A stretch of DNA of 64,000 nt. It comes from Chloracidobacterium sp. CP2_5A (GTDB lineage: Bacteria; Acidobacteriota; Blastocatellia; Chloracidobacteriales; Chloracidobacteriaceae). The notes under the pieces were generated by a model, which was not told the origin of the DNA, did no database searches, and saw only the letters and a program-made list of their open reading frames with translations. The DNA is taken from contig NKPT01000004.1 of NCBI GenBank assembly GCA_002254845.1, forward strand, positions 1 through 64,000, in the 5' to 3' direction. Positions within the stretch are counted from its first letter, which is position 1; the number at the start of each line of letters is the position of its first letter. The position numbers and the translations under genes are program-made. Below are positions 40,111-55,267 of the stretch, piece by piece.

Positions 40111-41280
40111 TCAGCGCGGCGGCGGCAAGCCCGCGTTGGGCGGACGGCGGACAATCGCGCAACCGATGGCCGGACGGCACAGGCGAGCGACTGGCTGACC
40201 ATTCAGCACGGACTCCAGCGCCTCGCGCAACAGATGGGTTGTCACGCGCTCCGGGTGGTAGGTGTTGTCGTCAATGCGCCCGTGGTACTGCAAGCGCCCC
40301 TGCGCATCCGCCAGAAAGCACTCCGTCATACAGGTCGCTCCCAAGGCGTCCGTCGCTCGGCGGTCCTCATCGACCACCACTGGAAAGGCGAACGGCTTGG
40401 CTTTTTGGCGCTCAATGATTTCGGCAAGCGGCTCATTCGCGTTCGGATTGAAGCCGATGAAAACAACCTGGCGCGCCGCGTAGTCCGCCGCCAGCGCGTT
40501 GAGTCGGGCGCGGTAGGCTTCCACGCAGGGGCAGCGCGTCCCAACCGCTACCAACACCACAAGTTTCCCGCGGTAGTCGCTCAGGCGGACCTCCCGCCCA
40601 TCCAAGCCAGTGAACGCGATCTCCGGCAGCCGCGCGCCAATGGCGATCAGCGAGTCATCGTTTGAGACAGCATGGCCCAAGTGATCCAAATCGTCGCCCA
40701 GCGCCCGTCCGGTAAAGACATCGTAGCCCCACCCGGCCGCCGCCAAAACCGCCGCCGCGCAGAGGGTCGCGCCCGCCGCCCCGGACGCCGCCAGCAAGCG
40801 CAGCCGCGCCGGATAAGGCGCCTCCGGAAACAGCGACCGGGCGACTTCGAACGGCAGCGCGCCAAAAGCGAAGCACAGGAGCGTCGCCGCGGCGTGACGC
40901 GCCTCCCAGGTCGTCAAAGCGAGGATCAACGCGGCAATAAGGAGCGAGGAAGCGCGGATAACGACGGCGAACGGATGCCCGTCGCGCGGCGCGGCAGGCG
41001 ATGAGCGACTGCAACGCCACCGCCAAATGAGCCACCAGACGGACAAAAGCGCCAGGGCCGCCGCTGGCCCAAATAGCGCCCGTCGCCCCAGCCCAAGCAG
41101 GAAAGCCGCTTCGGCCGTCCAGACGCCGAGCTGTCCCGCCAAAACGCCCAGCGCGCCGCACCAGACCACCCGCGCCAGGGACTGCCCCCAAACCACCTTG
41201 CTCGACCAGCGCCCGCTGCGCGGCGGCGACCACAACCCATCCAGGATGCCCAGCAAAAGGGCGAAAACGAGAAAAAACAT
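40111..41280 (-). CDS. Membrane protein with C-terminal AhpC/TSA-type redoxin domain
   Basis: A 389-residue fusion starting at ATG 41278-41280 (MFFLVFALLLGILDG). The N-terminal 190 residues have five or six hydrophobic segments, basic loops and no motif I can name. The C-terminal domain reads IGARLPEIAFTGLDGREVRL and SDYRGKLVVLVAVGTRCPC with CPC at Cys250 and Cys252, then VFIGFNPNANEP and ECFLADAQGRLQY, a thioredoxin-fold redoxin. The CPC spacing is not the typical CxxC. It may move electrons or reduce peroxide at the membrane; function is inferred. It converges with the UbiA gene. Confidence 0.7.
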   Translation of the reverse strand: MFFLVFALLLGILDGLWSPPRSGRWSSKVVWGQSLARVVWCGALGVLAGQLGVWTAEAAFLLGLGRRALFGPAAALALLSVWWLIWRWRCSRSSPAAPRDGHPFAVVIRASSLLIAALILALTTWEARHAAATLLCFAFGALPFEVARSLFPEAPYPARLRLLAASGAAGATLCAAAVLAAAGWGYDVFTGRALGDDLDHLGHAVSNDDSLIAIGARLPEIAFTGLDGREVRLSDYRGKLVVLVAVGTRCPCVEAYRARLNALAADYAARQVVFIGFNPNANEPLAEIIERQKAKPFAFPVVVDEDRRATDALGATCMTECFLADAQGRLQYHGRIDDNTYHPERVTTHLLREALESVLNGQPVARLCRPAIGCAIVRRPPNAGLPPPR

Positions 41281-41445
41281 ACCGTTCGCATTGTGGGCGC
41301 CAGCGTGGCCAAGCGCAACCTGAGCCGGCAGGCATCGCTCGCCACAGGCGCTGCTCAACAAGTAGCGCCTAGACAGGTTTTCGATTATTTTTCAGACCTT
41401 TTATTTCGTCGGATAGACTGGCTATCGCTTCGCCCGCCCAACCCA

Positions 41446-43233
41446 ATGTATTCGCTCGTCATTTATCTGCATAACGCGCCGCCGCATCGCGCATTGCTTG
41501 TCAAGCCGCGCTACACGCTCGGGCGAAGCGTTCGAGCGGATATCATCGTGGCGGACTCTTTCGCGTCACGCATTCATGCCTCGCTCTGGCGTGATGGAGA
41601 AACCTTCACGCTGGAAGACCTCAAAAGCGCCAACGGCACCCATTACCAGGGGCAGCGCGTTCATCAGCCGGTTCGGCTCAAGCCCGGCGACCGCTTTCGC
41701 ATCGGGGAAACCGAGCTGGAGCTTGTCCTGGAAGATCGCCTCACGCGCGCGGCGGCGCCTTCCGTCACCTACTTCAGCTCGCCTTCCAGCACGATTCCAG
41801 AGGCGCAGATTGGACTGAGAAGCCCCCACACGGCGGATGAGATCATCAAGCGCGCCTTCGAGCGCAGCTCCAGCGGGCTGGCCGGGGCCGCGCCGTCCGA
41901 GGCTCATCAGCCGCCGGAGACAAAGCTGGCGGCACCCGGGGGCAAGGACTGGCTGCCCGATGTCGCCGGCGAGACAAAGCTTGGACGCCAGCGCCCCGAC
42001 TTGCTGGCGCTCGTCAGCCGGGTTGGGGTGACGCTGCTGTCTAACGCCGGCTTTGATGAAACGCTGGAAGAAATCATGACGCTCATCTTCGAGTCGCTGC
42101 CGGCTGAGCGCGGCTTTTTGCTCATTTGCGGCAGCGCCAAAAACGACCTGGAATGCCGTGTCGCGCGCTCCAAAACCGGTCCGATGCCCTTGAGCGAAGT
42201 CGCCGTGAGCCAGGGCATTACCGAGTGCGTTCTCGCCTCGCGGGCGGCGGTGCTGACTTCGGATGCCCGCCATGACCCGCGCTTCGGGGGGAGCCAGTCC
42301 ATTTTGCTCGGCGACATTCGCTCCGTGATGGGCGTGCCGCTCATCTTCCGCGACCAGCTTCACGGGCTGATTTACGTTGAAAACCCTTATGAGCGGCGCT
42401 TCACGCCGGACGACCTCGAAGTGCTGACGACCATCGCCAGCGTGGCCGCCGTCAAGATTGAAAACACGCGCCTGCTTGAGGAAAGAATGGAGCGACAGCG
42501 CCTGCAAGCGGAAATCGCCTTGGCGGCGCGGATTCAAGCCTCCATGCTGCCCCAGCGCGAGCCGCTGACGCCCGGCTTTGAAGTGGCCGGGCTCTCCCGC
42601 CCGGCCGAGGACATCGGCGGCGATTATTACGACTATATCAAGGCGGGCGAGAACCGCTTGGCTGTCGTCATTGGCGACGCCTCCGGTCACGGCGTCTCGT
42701 CGGGGCTGCTGATGGCGCTAGCGAAGGGGGCGCTCCTCAATCAGCTTGGGACGGACTGCGACCCGACAAGCGTCATGCAAACAATGAATCGGCTGATCTG
42801 TGAAAACGGAACGCGCCGCGATCTGATGACGTTTTGCTATGTCTTGCTCGACCTGCTAACCGGCGCGGCGACCATTGCGAACGCGGGGCACCCATATCCG
42901 ATGCTCTACCGCGCCGGCGCGCAAACGCTGCAGAGTCTGGAGCTTGAGCATTATCCGCTGGGCGTCCGGCCAACGCTGGGCGCGCTGCCGATCCTGACCC
43001 AGCAACTTGCCCTCGGAGACGCCATCGTCCTGTGCAGCGACGGCATCCCGGAACTCAAAAATCGCGCCGGCCGCTATTTTGGCTATGATGGGCTGGAAGC
43101 GGTGATTCGCCGCTGCGCGCATCTGCCGGCCCGCGATTTATGCGAGACCATCCTTGAAAAAGCGTTGGCCTTTGCGGCGGGCGCCATTCCGGAAGACGAC
43201 ATGACCGTGGTTGTCATCAAGCGAACCGCCTGA
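41446..43233 (+). CDS. FHA-GAF-SpoIIE (RsbU-type) Ser/Thr phosphatase
   Basis: A 595-residue signalling protein, starting at ATG 41446 (MYSLVIYLHNAPPH); the frame is open from 41293. Residues 20-95 are FHA: YTLGRSVRADIIV, SRIHASLWRDGETFTL, SANGTHY. A linker leads to a GAF domain (about 185-345: LLSNAGFDETLEEIM, GVPLIFRDQLHGLIYVENP). The C-terminus is PP2C/SpoIIE: ARIQASMLPQREP, EDIGGDYYDY, GDASGHGVSSGLLMAL, EDDMTVVVIKRT. It would sense pThr and a small ligand and dephosphorylate an anti-anti-sigma-like partner. No partner gene is adjacent. Confidence 0.92.
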   Translation: MYSLVIYLHNAPPHRALLVKPRYTLGRSVRADIIVADSFASRIHASLWRDGETFTLEDLKSANGTHYQGQRVHQPVRLKPGDRFRIGETELELVLEDRLTRAAAPSVTYFSSPSSTIPEAQIGLRSPHTADEIIKRAFERSSSGLAGAAPSEAHQPPETKLAAPGGKDWLPDVAGETKLGRQRPDLLALVSRVGVTLLSNAGFDETLEEIMTLIFESLPAERGFLLICGSAKNDLECRVARSKTGPMPLSEVAVSQGITECVLASRAAVLTSDARHDPRFGGSQSILLGDIRSVMGVPLIFRDQLHGLIYVENPYERRFTPDDLEVLTTIASVAAVKIENTRLLEERMERQRLQAEIALAARIQASMLPQREPLTPGFEVAGLSRPAEDIGGDYYDYIKAGENRLAVVIGDASGHGVSSGLLMALAKGALLNQLGTDCDPTSVMQTMNRLICENGTRRDLMTFCYVLLDLLTGAATIANAGHPYPMLYRAGAQTLQSLELEHYPLGVRPTLGALPILTQQLALGDAIVLCSDGIPELKNRAGRYFGYDGLEAVIRRCAHLPARDLCETILEKALAFAAGAIPEDDMTVVVIKRTA

Positions 43234-43269
43234 CTGGCGCTACATTATCTTCTGAAAGGAAATTATTCC

Positions 43270-43998
43270 ATGCTGCGATGGAGTCGGACGCTATGCGCCG
43301 CAATGGCGCTCGTCGTCGCCTGTTTACTGGTCGGAACCGGATTCCCTGATCGAAGCCTTTCCGCTGAAGCGCGAGCGGAAGCCATCGAGCGCCCTCAGAA
43401 GCGACGCTCGGCGAGCGGCCGCCGCGTCCGCTCCGGGCGCGCCCGGAGCAGGAGGGCGCGCGGCTATCGGGGGCGAAGCGCGACGGCCCGCAAGCGTCGG
43501 GGGCGCATCGCCCGCAGCCAGGGGCGCGCTTACCGCGGGCGCGGCGCGCGCCTGCGAAGCCGGCGCGGACGCAGCTACCGCGGCGGGCGCGTCGTTCGGG
43601 GTCGCGCGGCGCGGGGACGCCGTGGCGGGCGGTATGCGCGGCGCGGGCGCTATGCCCGCCGCGGTCGAGCGACGGCCTACGCTTACCGGTCGGCAGCGCC
43701 GGCGACGCCTTATCGCGCGCCGCGCAGTCTGGCAATCCCCGAATCCCGCGCCCGCGAAATCCAGGAAAAGCTCAAGGAAGCGGGCTTCTATCAAGGCGAA
43801 GTCACCGGCCAGTATGATGAAAATACCCGCGAGGCGATGCGCGGCTTCCAGCGGGCCAACGGACTCAAGGAAACCGGCACGCCGACCGCTCCGGCATTGC
43901 TGCGACTGGGGCTGACTAAGCGCAGCTCGGATGCCAGCGACACTTCCGCCCCGCCGGGACAACTTCCGCCCCCGGCCGATACGCCACCGCCACAGTGA
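43270..43998 (+). CDS. Secreted Arg/Gly-rich protein with C-terminal peptidoglycan-binding domain
   Basis: A 242-residue protein. Signal peptide or anchor: MALVVACLLVGTG. Residues 41-140 hold about 40 Arg plus Gly, Ser, Tyr and Ala in RGR/RRGR blocks (GRRGGRYARRGRYARRGR). Residues 150-210 form a PG_binding_1 domain (AREIQEKLKEAGFYQGEVTG, YDENTREAMRGFQRANGL). A Pro-rich tail ends it. AAGGA lies ten bases before the ATG. An extremely basic protein tethered to the wall is suggested; ligand unknown. It follows the SpoIIE phosphatase by 36 bases. Confidence 0.8.
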   Translation: MLRWSRTLCAAMALVVACLLVGTGFPDRSLSAEARAEAIERPQKRRSASGRRVRSGRARSRRARGYRGRSATARKRRGRIARSQGRAYRGRGARLRSRRGRSYRGGRVVRGRAARGRRGGRYARRGRYARRGRATAYAYRSAAPATPYRAPRSLAIPESRAREIQEKLKEAGFYQGEVTGQYDENTREAMRGFQRANGLKETGTPTAPALLRLGLTKRSSDASDTSAPPGQLPPPADTPPPQ

Positions 43999-44020
43999 CA
44001 GCGCGGATAGCCGGCTTGCC

Positions 44021-44944
44021 TTAGAGGCGGGCGACTTCGTTATCGCCCGCCTCTTCCGTTATGGCGACCAGCAGGGCGGGACGCGCATCCGAGGAAGAAA
44101 GCTTACCCAGCCGGCGCTCAAGCTCCTGGATCGCCAGCCGACGATTGAACACGGCTCCAATAAGGAACACGAAGGCGACAACGTACATCCAGACCAGCAG
44201 CACGATGACGGTCCCAATGCTGCCGTAAATGCGGCCGTAGGCGCTGAAGTTCGACACATAAACGCCAAAGCCAAGCGTCGCCAGTCCCCAGAGCGTGGTT
44301 GCAAAGACGGCTCCCGGCAGGATGTGCCGCCAGCGCGGGGGACGGCTTGGCGCCAGCCGATAGAGCAGCATTTGAATCAGGAAAACGCTCCAGACGATGA
44401 AGAACCAACGCGCCGCCGCCCAGAAGTGGCCAAACGCGATCGCGCCGCCGCTGATCCGACTGATGAGATGCTCAAGGTGCGCGCCGACAACGCCGGCCAC
44501 CGAGACAAGGACCAAGGGCAGCCCGACCACAAAGACCAGCTCCAGACACAGAAGCTGCTCCCGCCAGAACGAGCGGCGGGGCGAGATGGCGTAAATGCGG
44601 TCAAGCGCTCGCGACAGGGTGGCGATCAACCCGATCGCTGGCAGGAGCGTGGCGAAAAACGACAACAGCGCCACCTGTCCCGGACGTCCCTGCATGAGTT
44701 GTTGTAAGTAAGACTCGACCACGCTGAAGGTGCCCGGCGGCATAATGCGCCGCAGCCCTTCCAGAAGCGCCGCCGTTTGCTCGCTTCCCAGCGCCGCGAA
44801 TGCCGCCACGAAAAACAGCAGGAGCGGAAAGAACGTCAGCACAAAGGAATAAGCGGCTTCTTTGGCGAAGCCGACGCAGTCATACTCGATGGCGTCGAGC
44901 AGGGTTTTCCAGAGCAGACGACGGAGTTGCGCAAGCCGGCTCAT
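44021..44944 (-). CDS. YihY/BrkB-family inner-membrane protein
   Basis: A 307-residue protein with six hydrophobic segments. AYSFVLTFFPLLLFFVAAFA near residue 30 and the terminal LLVWMYVVAFVFLIGAVFNR are typical of YihY/virulence factor BrkB (formerly ribonuclease BN by misassignment). Its biochemical role is unknown. The N-terminal LFWKTLLDAIEYDCVGFAKE-type helix is amphipathic. It is 32 bases after glgC. The last codons contain a perfect 11-bp dyad. Confidence 0.85.
   Translation of the reverse strand: MSRLAQLRRLLWKTLLDAIEYDCVGFAKEAAYSFVLTFFPLLLFFVAAFAALGSEQTAALLEGLRRIMPPGTFSVVESYLQQLMQGRPGQVALLSFFATLLPAIGLIATLSRALDRIYAISPRRSFWREQLLCLELVFVVGLPLVLVSVAGVVGAHLEHLISRISGGAIAFGHFWAAARWFFIVWSVFLIQMLLYRLAPSRPPRWRHILPGAVFATTLWGLATLGFGVYVSNFSAYGRIYGSIGTVIVLLVWMYVVAFVFLIGAVFNRRLAIQELERRLGKLSSSDARPALLVAITEEAGDNEVARL
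44024..44053 (+). terminator. Perfect 11-bp dyad, possible terminator of the Arg-rich gene
   Basis: GAGGCGGGCGA / TCGCCCGCCTC with an 8-base loop, 26 bases beyond the Arg-rich gene stop. It overlaps the 3' end of yihY. Only a poor T tract (ttccgtt) follows on the plus strand, so termination is uncertain. Confidence 0.45.
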
Positions 44945-54247: not shown

Positions 54248-55267
54248 ATGCAACCGATTGCACAACCCCTTCGCGCAGCCATGGGTCGGCGACTGACTCA
54301 GGTTGCCTTTGCAACGGCTTTTCAGCTGTCCCTTTCCGCTACGCTGCTGGCCATTGAGTCACCGCTGGCCGCGCTGGATGAAGCGCCACAAGCGCCTTCA
54401 TCCCCGCCCATCGAAATCGAGTCAGCGCTCCGCCAGCCAAGCGTTTATTTGGGCGTCTTTCCCCAAACGCTCTCCGAGCAAAAGGCGACTGAGCTTGGCG
54501 TCTCGCCCCCGCAGGGCGTGTACTTGATAAAGGTCATCGAAGGCAGCCCGGCCGACAAAGCTGGACTCAAGCAGGGCGACGCGATTGTCTCCATCAACGG
54601 ACAAGCGATCATCAACGGCGAGCACTTTCGCGACTTGCTCCGCAAGCAAACGCCCGGACAGGCCATGACGCTGGGCGTTGTCCGCGACAAGCAACTGATT
54701 TCTGTTTCAGTTGTCCCGGAGAAGCCGCGCGTGAGCAGGCTGGCGCTGCCGGATGGGCAGTTTGGAATCGCCATTGACCCCGAAGCCAGCCGCAAATCGG
54801 CCGAGCGGATGCGCGAGATGGCGGAGCAAATGCGCCGCCTTGGCGAGCAACGCCGCTTCGAGCTAAAAGGCAACGGGATGACGATGGCGTATAGCGACCG
54901 AGGGCGGCTCGGCGTGCGGACGCAAACGCTTTCCGAGCAACTCGCGAGCTACTTCGGCGTCACCGAAGGCGTTCTGGTCACAGAAGTGCTGCCTGGCTCC
55001 GCGGCTGAAAAAGCCGGGATTCGCGCCGGCGACTGCCTGGTGAAGGTTGGCGACCGCCCCATCCGGGACGGCCGCGACTTGACCCAGGAGATACGCCGCG
55101 TCGAAGCCGGCGAAATCAAGGTGACGCTTGTGCGCAACAAGCAATCGCTCGTTGTGACGGCGACGCTTGACCCGGCCAAGCCGCAGGGCGCGCTTCAATT
55201 TGGGCCGCTTGATCTTTACTTCGAGGCGCGACCGCCGCGCATCGAGTTTTTCTACGGCCCGATGTGA
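54248..55267 (+). CDS. Secreted/membrane-associated protein with two PDZ domains
   Basis: A 339-residue protein from ATG 54248. A hydrophobic segment (QVAFATAFQLSLSATLLAIE) near residue 20 acts as a signal or anchor. Two PDZ domains: GVYLIKVIEGSPADKAGLKQ and GVLVTEVLPGSAAEKAGIRA with GDAIVSINGQ/GDCLVKVGDRP loops. A basic Met/Arg-rich linker joins them. There is no HtrA-type trypsin domain, so it is likely an adaptor or partner of another protease. Confidence 0.82.
   Translation: MQPIAQPLRAAMGRRLTQVAFATAFQLSLSATLLAIESPLAALDEAPQAPSSPPIEIESALRQPSVYLGVFPQTLSEQKATELGVSPPQGVYLIKVIEGSPADKAGLKQGDAIVSINGQAIINGEHFRDLLRKQTPGQAMTLGVVRDKQLISVSVVPEKPRVSRLALPDGQFGIAIDPEASRKSAERMREMAEQMRRLGEQRRFELKGNGMTMAYSDRGRLGVRTQTLSEQLASYFGVTEGVLVTEVLPGSAAEKAGIRAGDCLVKVGDRPIRDGRDLTQEIRRVEAGEIKVTLVRNKQSLVVTATLDPAKPQGALQFGPLDLYFEARPPRIEFFYGPM

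Follow-up and report, generated by a model that had tools for sequence, protein, structure and literature searches.

An exported arginine-rich protein of Chloracidobacterium belongs to an Acidobacteriota family with a conserved basic block and a PG_binding_1 domain

The DNA analysed here (the window) is a 64,000-nucleotide stretch of Chloracidobacterium sp. CP2_5A, a photosynthetic member of the Acidobacteriota. One of its open reading frames encodes a small protein in which a block of roughly 40% arginine stands before a peptidoglycan-binding domain. The locus raises the question of whether so extreme a composition belongs to a real gene, and what a polycation joined to such a domain would do. 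How the envelope of the abundant Acidobacteriota is held together is poorly known.

The arginine-rich gene and its product

The open reading frame at 43270-43998 on the forward strand is intact, begins with ATG, ends with TGA, and encodes 242 residues. Its parts and the preceding gene are listed below, all on the forward strand.

41446..43233, +, FHA-GAF-SpoIIE protein phosphatase gene (Pfam; gene order in all seven genus genomes)
43255..43260, +, ribosome-binding site AAAGGA, 9 bases 5’ of the ATG, read from sequence
43270..43998, +, encodes the exported Arg-rich PG_binding_1 protein (242 aa), present at full length in each of the seven genus genomes
43270..43377, +, signal peptide, residues 1-36 (n-region MLRWSR, hydrophobic core, ARA-E motif)
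43393..43689, +, Arg-rich block, residues 42-140 (composition, predicted disorder, charge conservation in the genus)
43750..43887, +, PG_binding_1 domain, residues 161-206 (Pfam E 6e-14, model, fold search)
43918..43995, +, C-terminal tail, residues 217-242, ending SSDASDTSAPPGQLPPPADTPPPQ (kept in the genus, partly in the family)

The FHA-GAF-SpoIIE frame opens at 41293, and the ATG at 41446 better matches the length of its relatives. It ends at 43233, 36 bases short of the Arg-rich gene, as the initial annotation had reported. A promoter scan of 41000-44300 returned no sigma-70-like site, and terminator-like matches in the same interval were not clearly above shuffles. Literature searches for proteomes gave no evidence of expression for the Arg-rich protein.

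Residues 42-140 contain 40 Arg in 99 positions (40.4%), together with 17 Gly, 15 Ala, 8 Ser, 7 Tyr, and 2 Lys. Acidic residues and His are absent, and the net charge is about +42. The richest 100-residue segment of the protein holds 41 Arg, and the RGR and RRGRYARRG motifs are present in the block, so this part of the initial description is accurate. The DNA of the block is 81% GC, compared with 64% for the window. Within the window, spurious frames contain as many as 36 Arg per 100 residues; the Arg count by itself is modestly above this noise and is weak evidence for a real gene.

Stronger evidence comes from the genus. Homologues in six other Chloracidobacterium genomes are full-length, share 65-82% identity, and retain the block with 39-48 Arg and 0-3 acidic residues each (seven genomes). 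Differences within the block fall on codon positions 1, 2, and 3 in the numbers 557, 533, and 1115. Only 12 of the 40 Arg columns are invariant, and the block varies in length by indels. The PG domain shows 629 synonymous and 134 nonsynonymous codon differences, indicating purifying selection, and the C-terminal tail shows 201 and 87, respectively. Because the block is retained and the third-position bias fits this frame, the frame is not a chance product, and an artefact of GC-rich DNA is ruled out. The open frame is a real, conserved gene.

A hydrophobic N-terminal core is present in every family member described below. In the window protein the cleavage site (ARA-E) was placed by eye and is putative. 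The protein had initially been called secreted; the signal peptide is evident, and the mature protein could be either released or periplasmic. A lipobox-like VVAC at residues 15-18 was also considered. The Cys is absent from the genus homologue of G005 (IVIG) and from sister genera, and a lipoprotein was rejected.

The peptidoglycan-binding domain of the initial annotation is confirmed as PF01471 (PG_binding_1) at residues 161-206, with an E value of 6e-14 and 52.3 bits against a cut-off of 23. The AlphaFold2 model, computed from the family alignment, has a confident N-terminal helix at residues 6-23, a region at residues 33-126 that is mostly below pLDDT 50, and a confident domain at about 157-213, with pLDDT 89-95 over residues 161-210. 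Helices at 158-171, 184-196, and 207-213 (pLDDT about 90) form the three-helix PG-binding fold. Pfam describes the binding activity of this domain as putative, and peptidoglycan binding need not hold in every protein that carries it. The C-terminal tail is Pro-rich.

A family with conserved positive charge

A family profile was built from 23 members and run on 396 genomes of the phylum, 134 of which gave matches. Strong matches cluster in f1, f2, f3, f5, f7, and f8, which are families of the same class, and in f16 (Acidobacteriaceae). The family extends over about ten family-level groups of Acidobacteriota, including Blastocatellia, Acidobacteriaceae, and two further families. Genus homologues were also identified among records of uncultured Chloracidobacterium and Blastocatellia; Terriglobus albidus and Granulicella aggregans carry more distant ones.

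The common architecture is a hydrophobic N-terminal core or signal peptide, a basic low-complexity block, one PG_binding_1 domain, and usually a short tail. The PG_binding_1 domain of the inspected members ends in ALxxLGL/V or a variant of that motif. The window protein has the signal peptide, the net-positive block, and a single PG_binding_1 domain with the ALxxLGL end. In a tree of the PG domain, members with and without the htrA linkage described below group together and apart from other PG-binding proteins (support 81/87); the tree uses 61 columns and leaves many forks open, including the deep order. The initial annotation had allowed for wide conservation as a known family. This is true of the PG_binding_1 domain only: Pfam and NCBIfam match the PG domain alone, and the widespread family as such carries no name there. 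The Arg-rich gene is the Chloracidobacterium member of this unnamed conserved family, and the window protein and its genus relatives are the most arginine-rich version among the members examined.

Several other small PG-binding proteins were observed. A second exported PG_binding_1 protein of about 127 aa (L160:3277-3663; in its own genome C72:44920-45153) has Lys-rich stretches on either side of the domain; a sister genus has a relative (L161). The protein clusters with other PG-binding proteins, outside the Arg-rich family. Family f4, of the same class, has other PG-binding proteins only. Five of its loci (L154, L155, L156, L158, and L159) encode exported proteins with two PG_binding_1 domains and a short basic KRGP-type motif before each; these seemingly stand in place of the basic-block family and have no HtrA neighbour.

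The tails that follow the PG domain (window 43918-43995; L067 and L119; L068, L069, L122, and L153) are conserved within families and differ between them, with AGDTSAP in f1 and SNDGYAVPV in f3. This pattern suggests a lineage-specific docking or processing signal. An HtrA-linked member from f7 (L163:3348-4442, reverse strand) has a long Ala/Lys-rich linker and a total length of 364 aa. Unlike most other members, it ends right after the PG domain, in LGLTSW.

Every one of the 47 members sampled, from ten family-level groups, has a block of net positive charge, ranging from +3 to +46. In Acidobacteriaceae the blocks are short and their net charge is low, often +5 to +9, so not every member carries a strong polycation. 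In AT-rich hosts (GC 0.35-0.46) the blocks are still net positive, and Lys gives much of the charge. The ratio Arg/(Arg+Lys) of the block tracks that of neighbouring proteins, with a Spearman rho of 0.79 (p 2e-6), rising to 0.87 within Blastocatellia. Locus GC and the same ratio have a rho of 0.20 (p 0.17) over all members. A plain GC explanation of the arginine was rejected, since GC does not correlate with the ratio while the amino-acid usage of neighbours does. The window block has more Arg than its neighbours, at 43/45 against a background of 0.82 (p 0.008). What the family conserves is positive charge, and the block sequence and its Arg/Lys mix drift; as the charge is kept while the mix varies, the 40% arginine is a genus-specific extreme of a conserved polycation. 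A search for homologues of the Arg-rich block, which the initial annotation had proposed, finds it kept in all seven genus genomes, and relatives have Arg/Lys mixtures.

These data bear on two other readings of the block. It may be a low-complexity spacer produced by GC-rich codon drift, serving mainly to distance the PG domain from the membrane. The high GC of its DNA, its fast evolution by indels, the Arg-rich spurious frames, and the dependence of Arg/(Arg+Lys) on local usage are all consistent with a spacer. However, the genus blocks contain almost no acidic residues, and the charge is positive in 47 of 47 members, even in AT-rich hosts using Lys; drift alone would not maintain this. This reading is considered improbable.

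The initial annotation had also raised nucleic-acid binding through the RGR-type sequence. The basic arm might anchor extracellular DNA of a biofilm or mat to the wall, or DNA in the course of uptake. Polycations of such charge bind DNA non-specifically, and the genus blocks have an RGR/RGG-like composition with Tyr. The RGG/RGR repeats are absent from most relatives, however, whose blocks are rich in Lys, Ser, Thr, and His and do not retain the Arg/Gly/Tyr pattern. With this pattern largely limited to the genus, the reading loses its main argument, and because the Arg/Lys mixtures follow the local proteome, RGR-type readings have no specific support. The neighbours examined include no competence or DNA-uptake genes. 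Nucleic-acid binding by the block is unsupported but conceivable, and a DNA-anchoring function is rated as rather unlikely.

Linkage to htrA and a proposed role

The FHA-GAF-SpoIIE gene precedes the Arg-rich gene in seven of seven genus genomes, with gaps of 36-94 bases. In six of the seven, a BrkB-type gene (Pfam) and then an ADP-glucose-pyrophosphorylase-like gene (labelled from its translation) lie convergent downstream. The SpoIIE-gene order is absent from sister genera, and the adjacency noted by the initial annotation is therefore a genus trait; the phylum-wide neighbour is a Do-type HtrA, a protease of cell-envelope quality control. In one sister genus, an FHA-GAF histidine kinase gene (L067:13569-15503, reverse strand) occurs on the strand opposite the family member, about 5 kb away, and the N-terminal half of its product is similar to the FHA-GAF-SpoIIE protein.

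In 26 of 27 genomes, the gene immediately upstream of the family gene, in the same orientation, encodes a Do-type HtrA, and the two are 1-273 bases apart. These genomes were sampled from seven families (f5, f7, f8, f9, f16, f67, and f85), and the counts treat related genomes as independent. The 1-base gap, at L145, assumes its ATG start. In the one exception the HtrA gene is about 2.6 kb upstream on the same strand. Three linked HtrA proteins searched with Pfam have Trypsin_2 plus PDZ domains (two-PDZ type), and one that was run against NCBIfam matched degP_htrA_DO (TIGR02037) with 438.9 against a cut-off of 416.2. As a control, nine loci in the same class that encode other PG_binding_1 proteins were examined, and none has an HtrA neighbour.

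The neighbour is likewise missing from all 18 loci of the Chloracidobacterium family (f1) and of f2 and f3, two of which are on short contigs. The htrA linkage is therefore a frequent, not a defining, feature of the family. Chloracidobacterium retains HtrA-type genes elsewhere in the genome. Within the window, two PDZ-like stretches at 54446-55180 lie in one long open frame and are matched by the HtrA model. Literature searches returned no report joining arginine-rich, peptidoglycan-binding domain, and periplasm. A search on Acidobacteria, HtrA, and peptidoglycan binding returned one PDZ survey, and the pair is not described in the part of it consulted. The block composition is less exotic than it first seemed; of the two features, the HtrA linkage is the better lead.

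The reading preferred here, held tentatively, is that the protein is an exported, disordered polycation of the periplasm or surface, tethered to the wall, which belongs to an HtrA envelope-maintenance module and binds anionic polymers of the envelope. The folded PG_binding_1 domain would bind peptidoglycan and anchor the protein in the wall. The basic arm would bind anionic polymers such as LPS phosphates, acidic lipids, or acidic exopolysaccharide, and the protein would act as an electrostatic staple between wall and envelope. Where the genes are linked, it would be made together with HtrA as part of a maintenance or stress module, a role suggested by the gene linkage, with co-regulation presumed. 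For Chloracidobacterium, f2, and f3, where the linkage is absent, the assignment to the module is taken over from relatives, and the role may persist in Chloracidobacterium after loss of the linkage. The export signal, net charge, predicted disorder, PG_binding_1 fold, and HtrA linkage elsewhere in the phylum are features read from sequence. The wall-tethered polycation is the reading of the initial annotation that agrees best with the signal peptide, conserved charge without conserved sequence, disorder, and fold; its emphasis on arginine does not carry over, as Arg itself is not conserved.

An explanation acting on or through HtrA ranks close behind the staple reading. The protein could be a client, adaptor, or localiser of HtrA, with the basic arm holding HtrA or its substrates at the peptidoglycan, or with HtrA turning the protein over. 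Such an arrangement is possible but doubtful. The same limited credence is given to a two-gene envelope quality-control system, in which a cationic wall-bound partner positions or regulates the protease through its arm, and which became uncoupled in Chloracidobacterium, where the arm has 40% arginine. The tight phylum-wide order of htrA followed by the family gene is in keeping with a partnership, as is the existence of single chains that combine a PDZ protease with PG_binding_1 (the lmo1851 model, the CtpB structures, and the S41 Ctp proteases of PMC6411480). A PDZ-docking C-terminal motif was rejected, because the linked members end in unrelated sequences and share no C-terminus for docking. 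The pair is also separated in three families with the gene kept, so the gene can do without HtrA next to it.

The dense charge behind the signal peptide poses a difficulty for every reading that involves export, since numerous positive charges at this point are expected to hinder Sec export. An alternative is an inverted topology, with an uncleaved N-terminal anchor, a cytoplasmic Arg block binding DNA, RNA, or anionic lipid, and a repurposed PG_binding_1 fold. A dense Arg run after a hydrophobic segment fits the positive-inside rule, by which cytoplasmic loops are enriched in Lys and Arg (PMC9360617). Nevertheless, the block is repeatedly preceded by a basic n-region and an AxA-type site among the members, the PG domain is one of the best-conserved segments, and the phylum-wide neighbour is a periplasmic-type HtrA. 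This topology is judged to have little likelihood.

With a gene tied to htrA in many families, the small conserved exported polycation offers a testable entry to the Acidobacteriota envelope. The pairing points to an envelope-maintenance module of which the literature found gives no description. It also bears on the export of proteins with dozens of positive charges just behind the signal peptide.

Comparison with known systems

The nearest chains found with Foldseek are SltB3, SleB, and CtpB, with a probability of 1.00 and no E value below 0.001, the query being mostly disordered. A sequence search with the window protein found SleB alone. SleB (PDB 6tci and 4fet; N-terminal domain) and SltB3 (5anz) are PG_binding_1 proteins that match the C-terminal domain of the window protein in sequence and predicted fold. 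The window protein differs from both in lacking a hydrolase or transglycosylase domain and in having an exported basic disordered block. The SleB model TIGR02869 scores 41 bits against a cut-off of 236.5, with a match to the PG part alone and none to the hydrolase domain.

HxsA, the His-Xaa-Ser repeat protein, is alike in layout, with a low-complexity block before a terminal PG-binding domain, but the block of the window protein has no His-Xaa-Ser array. The HxsA model TIGR03979 gives 39.9 bits against a cut-off of 121.65, and the match is the PG domain alone. In seven genus genomes the HxsC maturase model gave weak matches, none above its cut-off. An HxsA/radical-SAM modified peptide system was rejected on the low score, the lack of repeats, and the lack of an HxsC above the cut-off.

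S41 PDZ proteases with PG_binding_1 (CtpB and lmo1851 type) combine a PDZ protease and a similar PG domain in one chain, and the PG domain of the window protein matches the lmo1851 S41 protease model of NCBIfam. S41 Ctp proteases carrying a peptidoglycan-binding domain are described in PMC6411480. They belong to another protease family and are single polypeptides rather than a two-gene pair. The Do/DegP/DegQ-type HtrA (TIGR02037) is the genomic partner directly upstream in most sampled families. It is not adjacent in Chloracidobacterium, and among the loci examined it is not fused with PG_binding_1.
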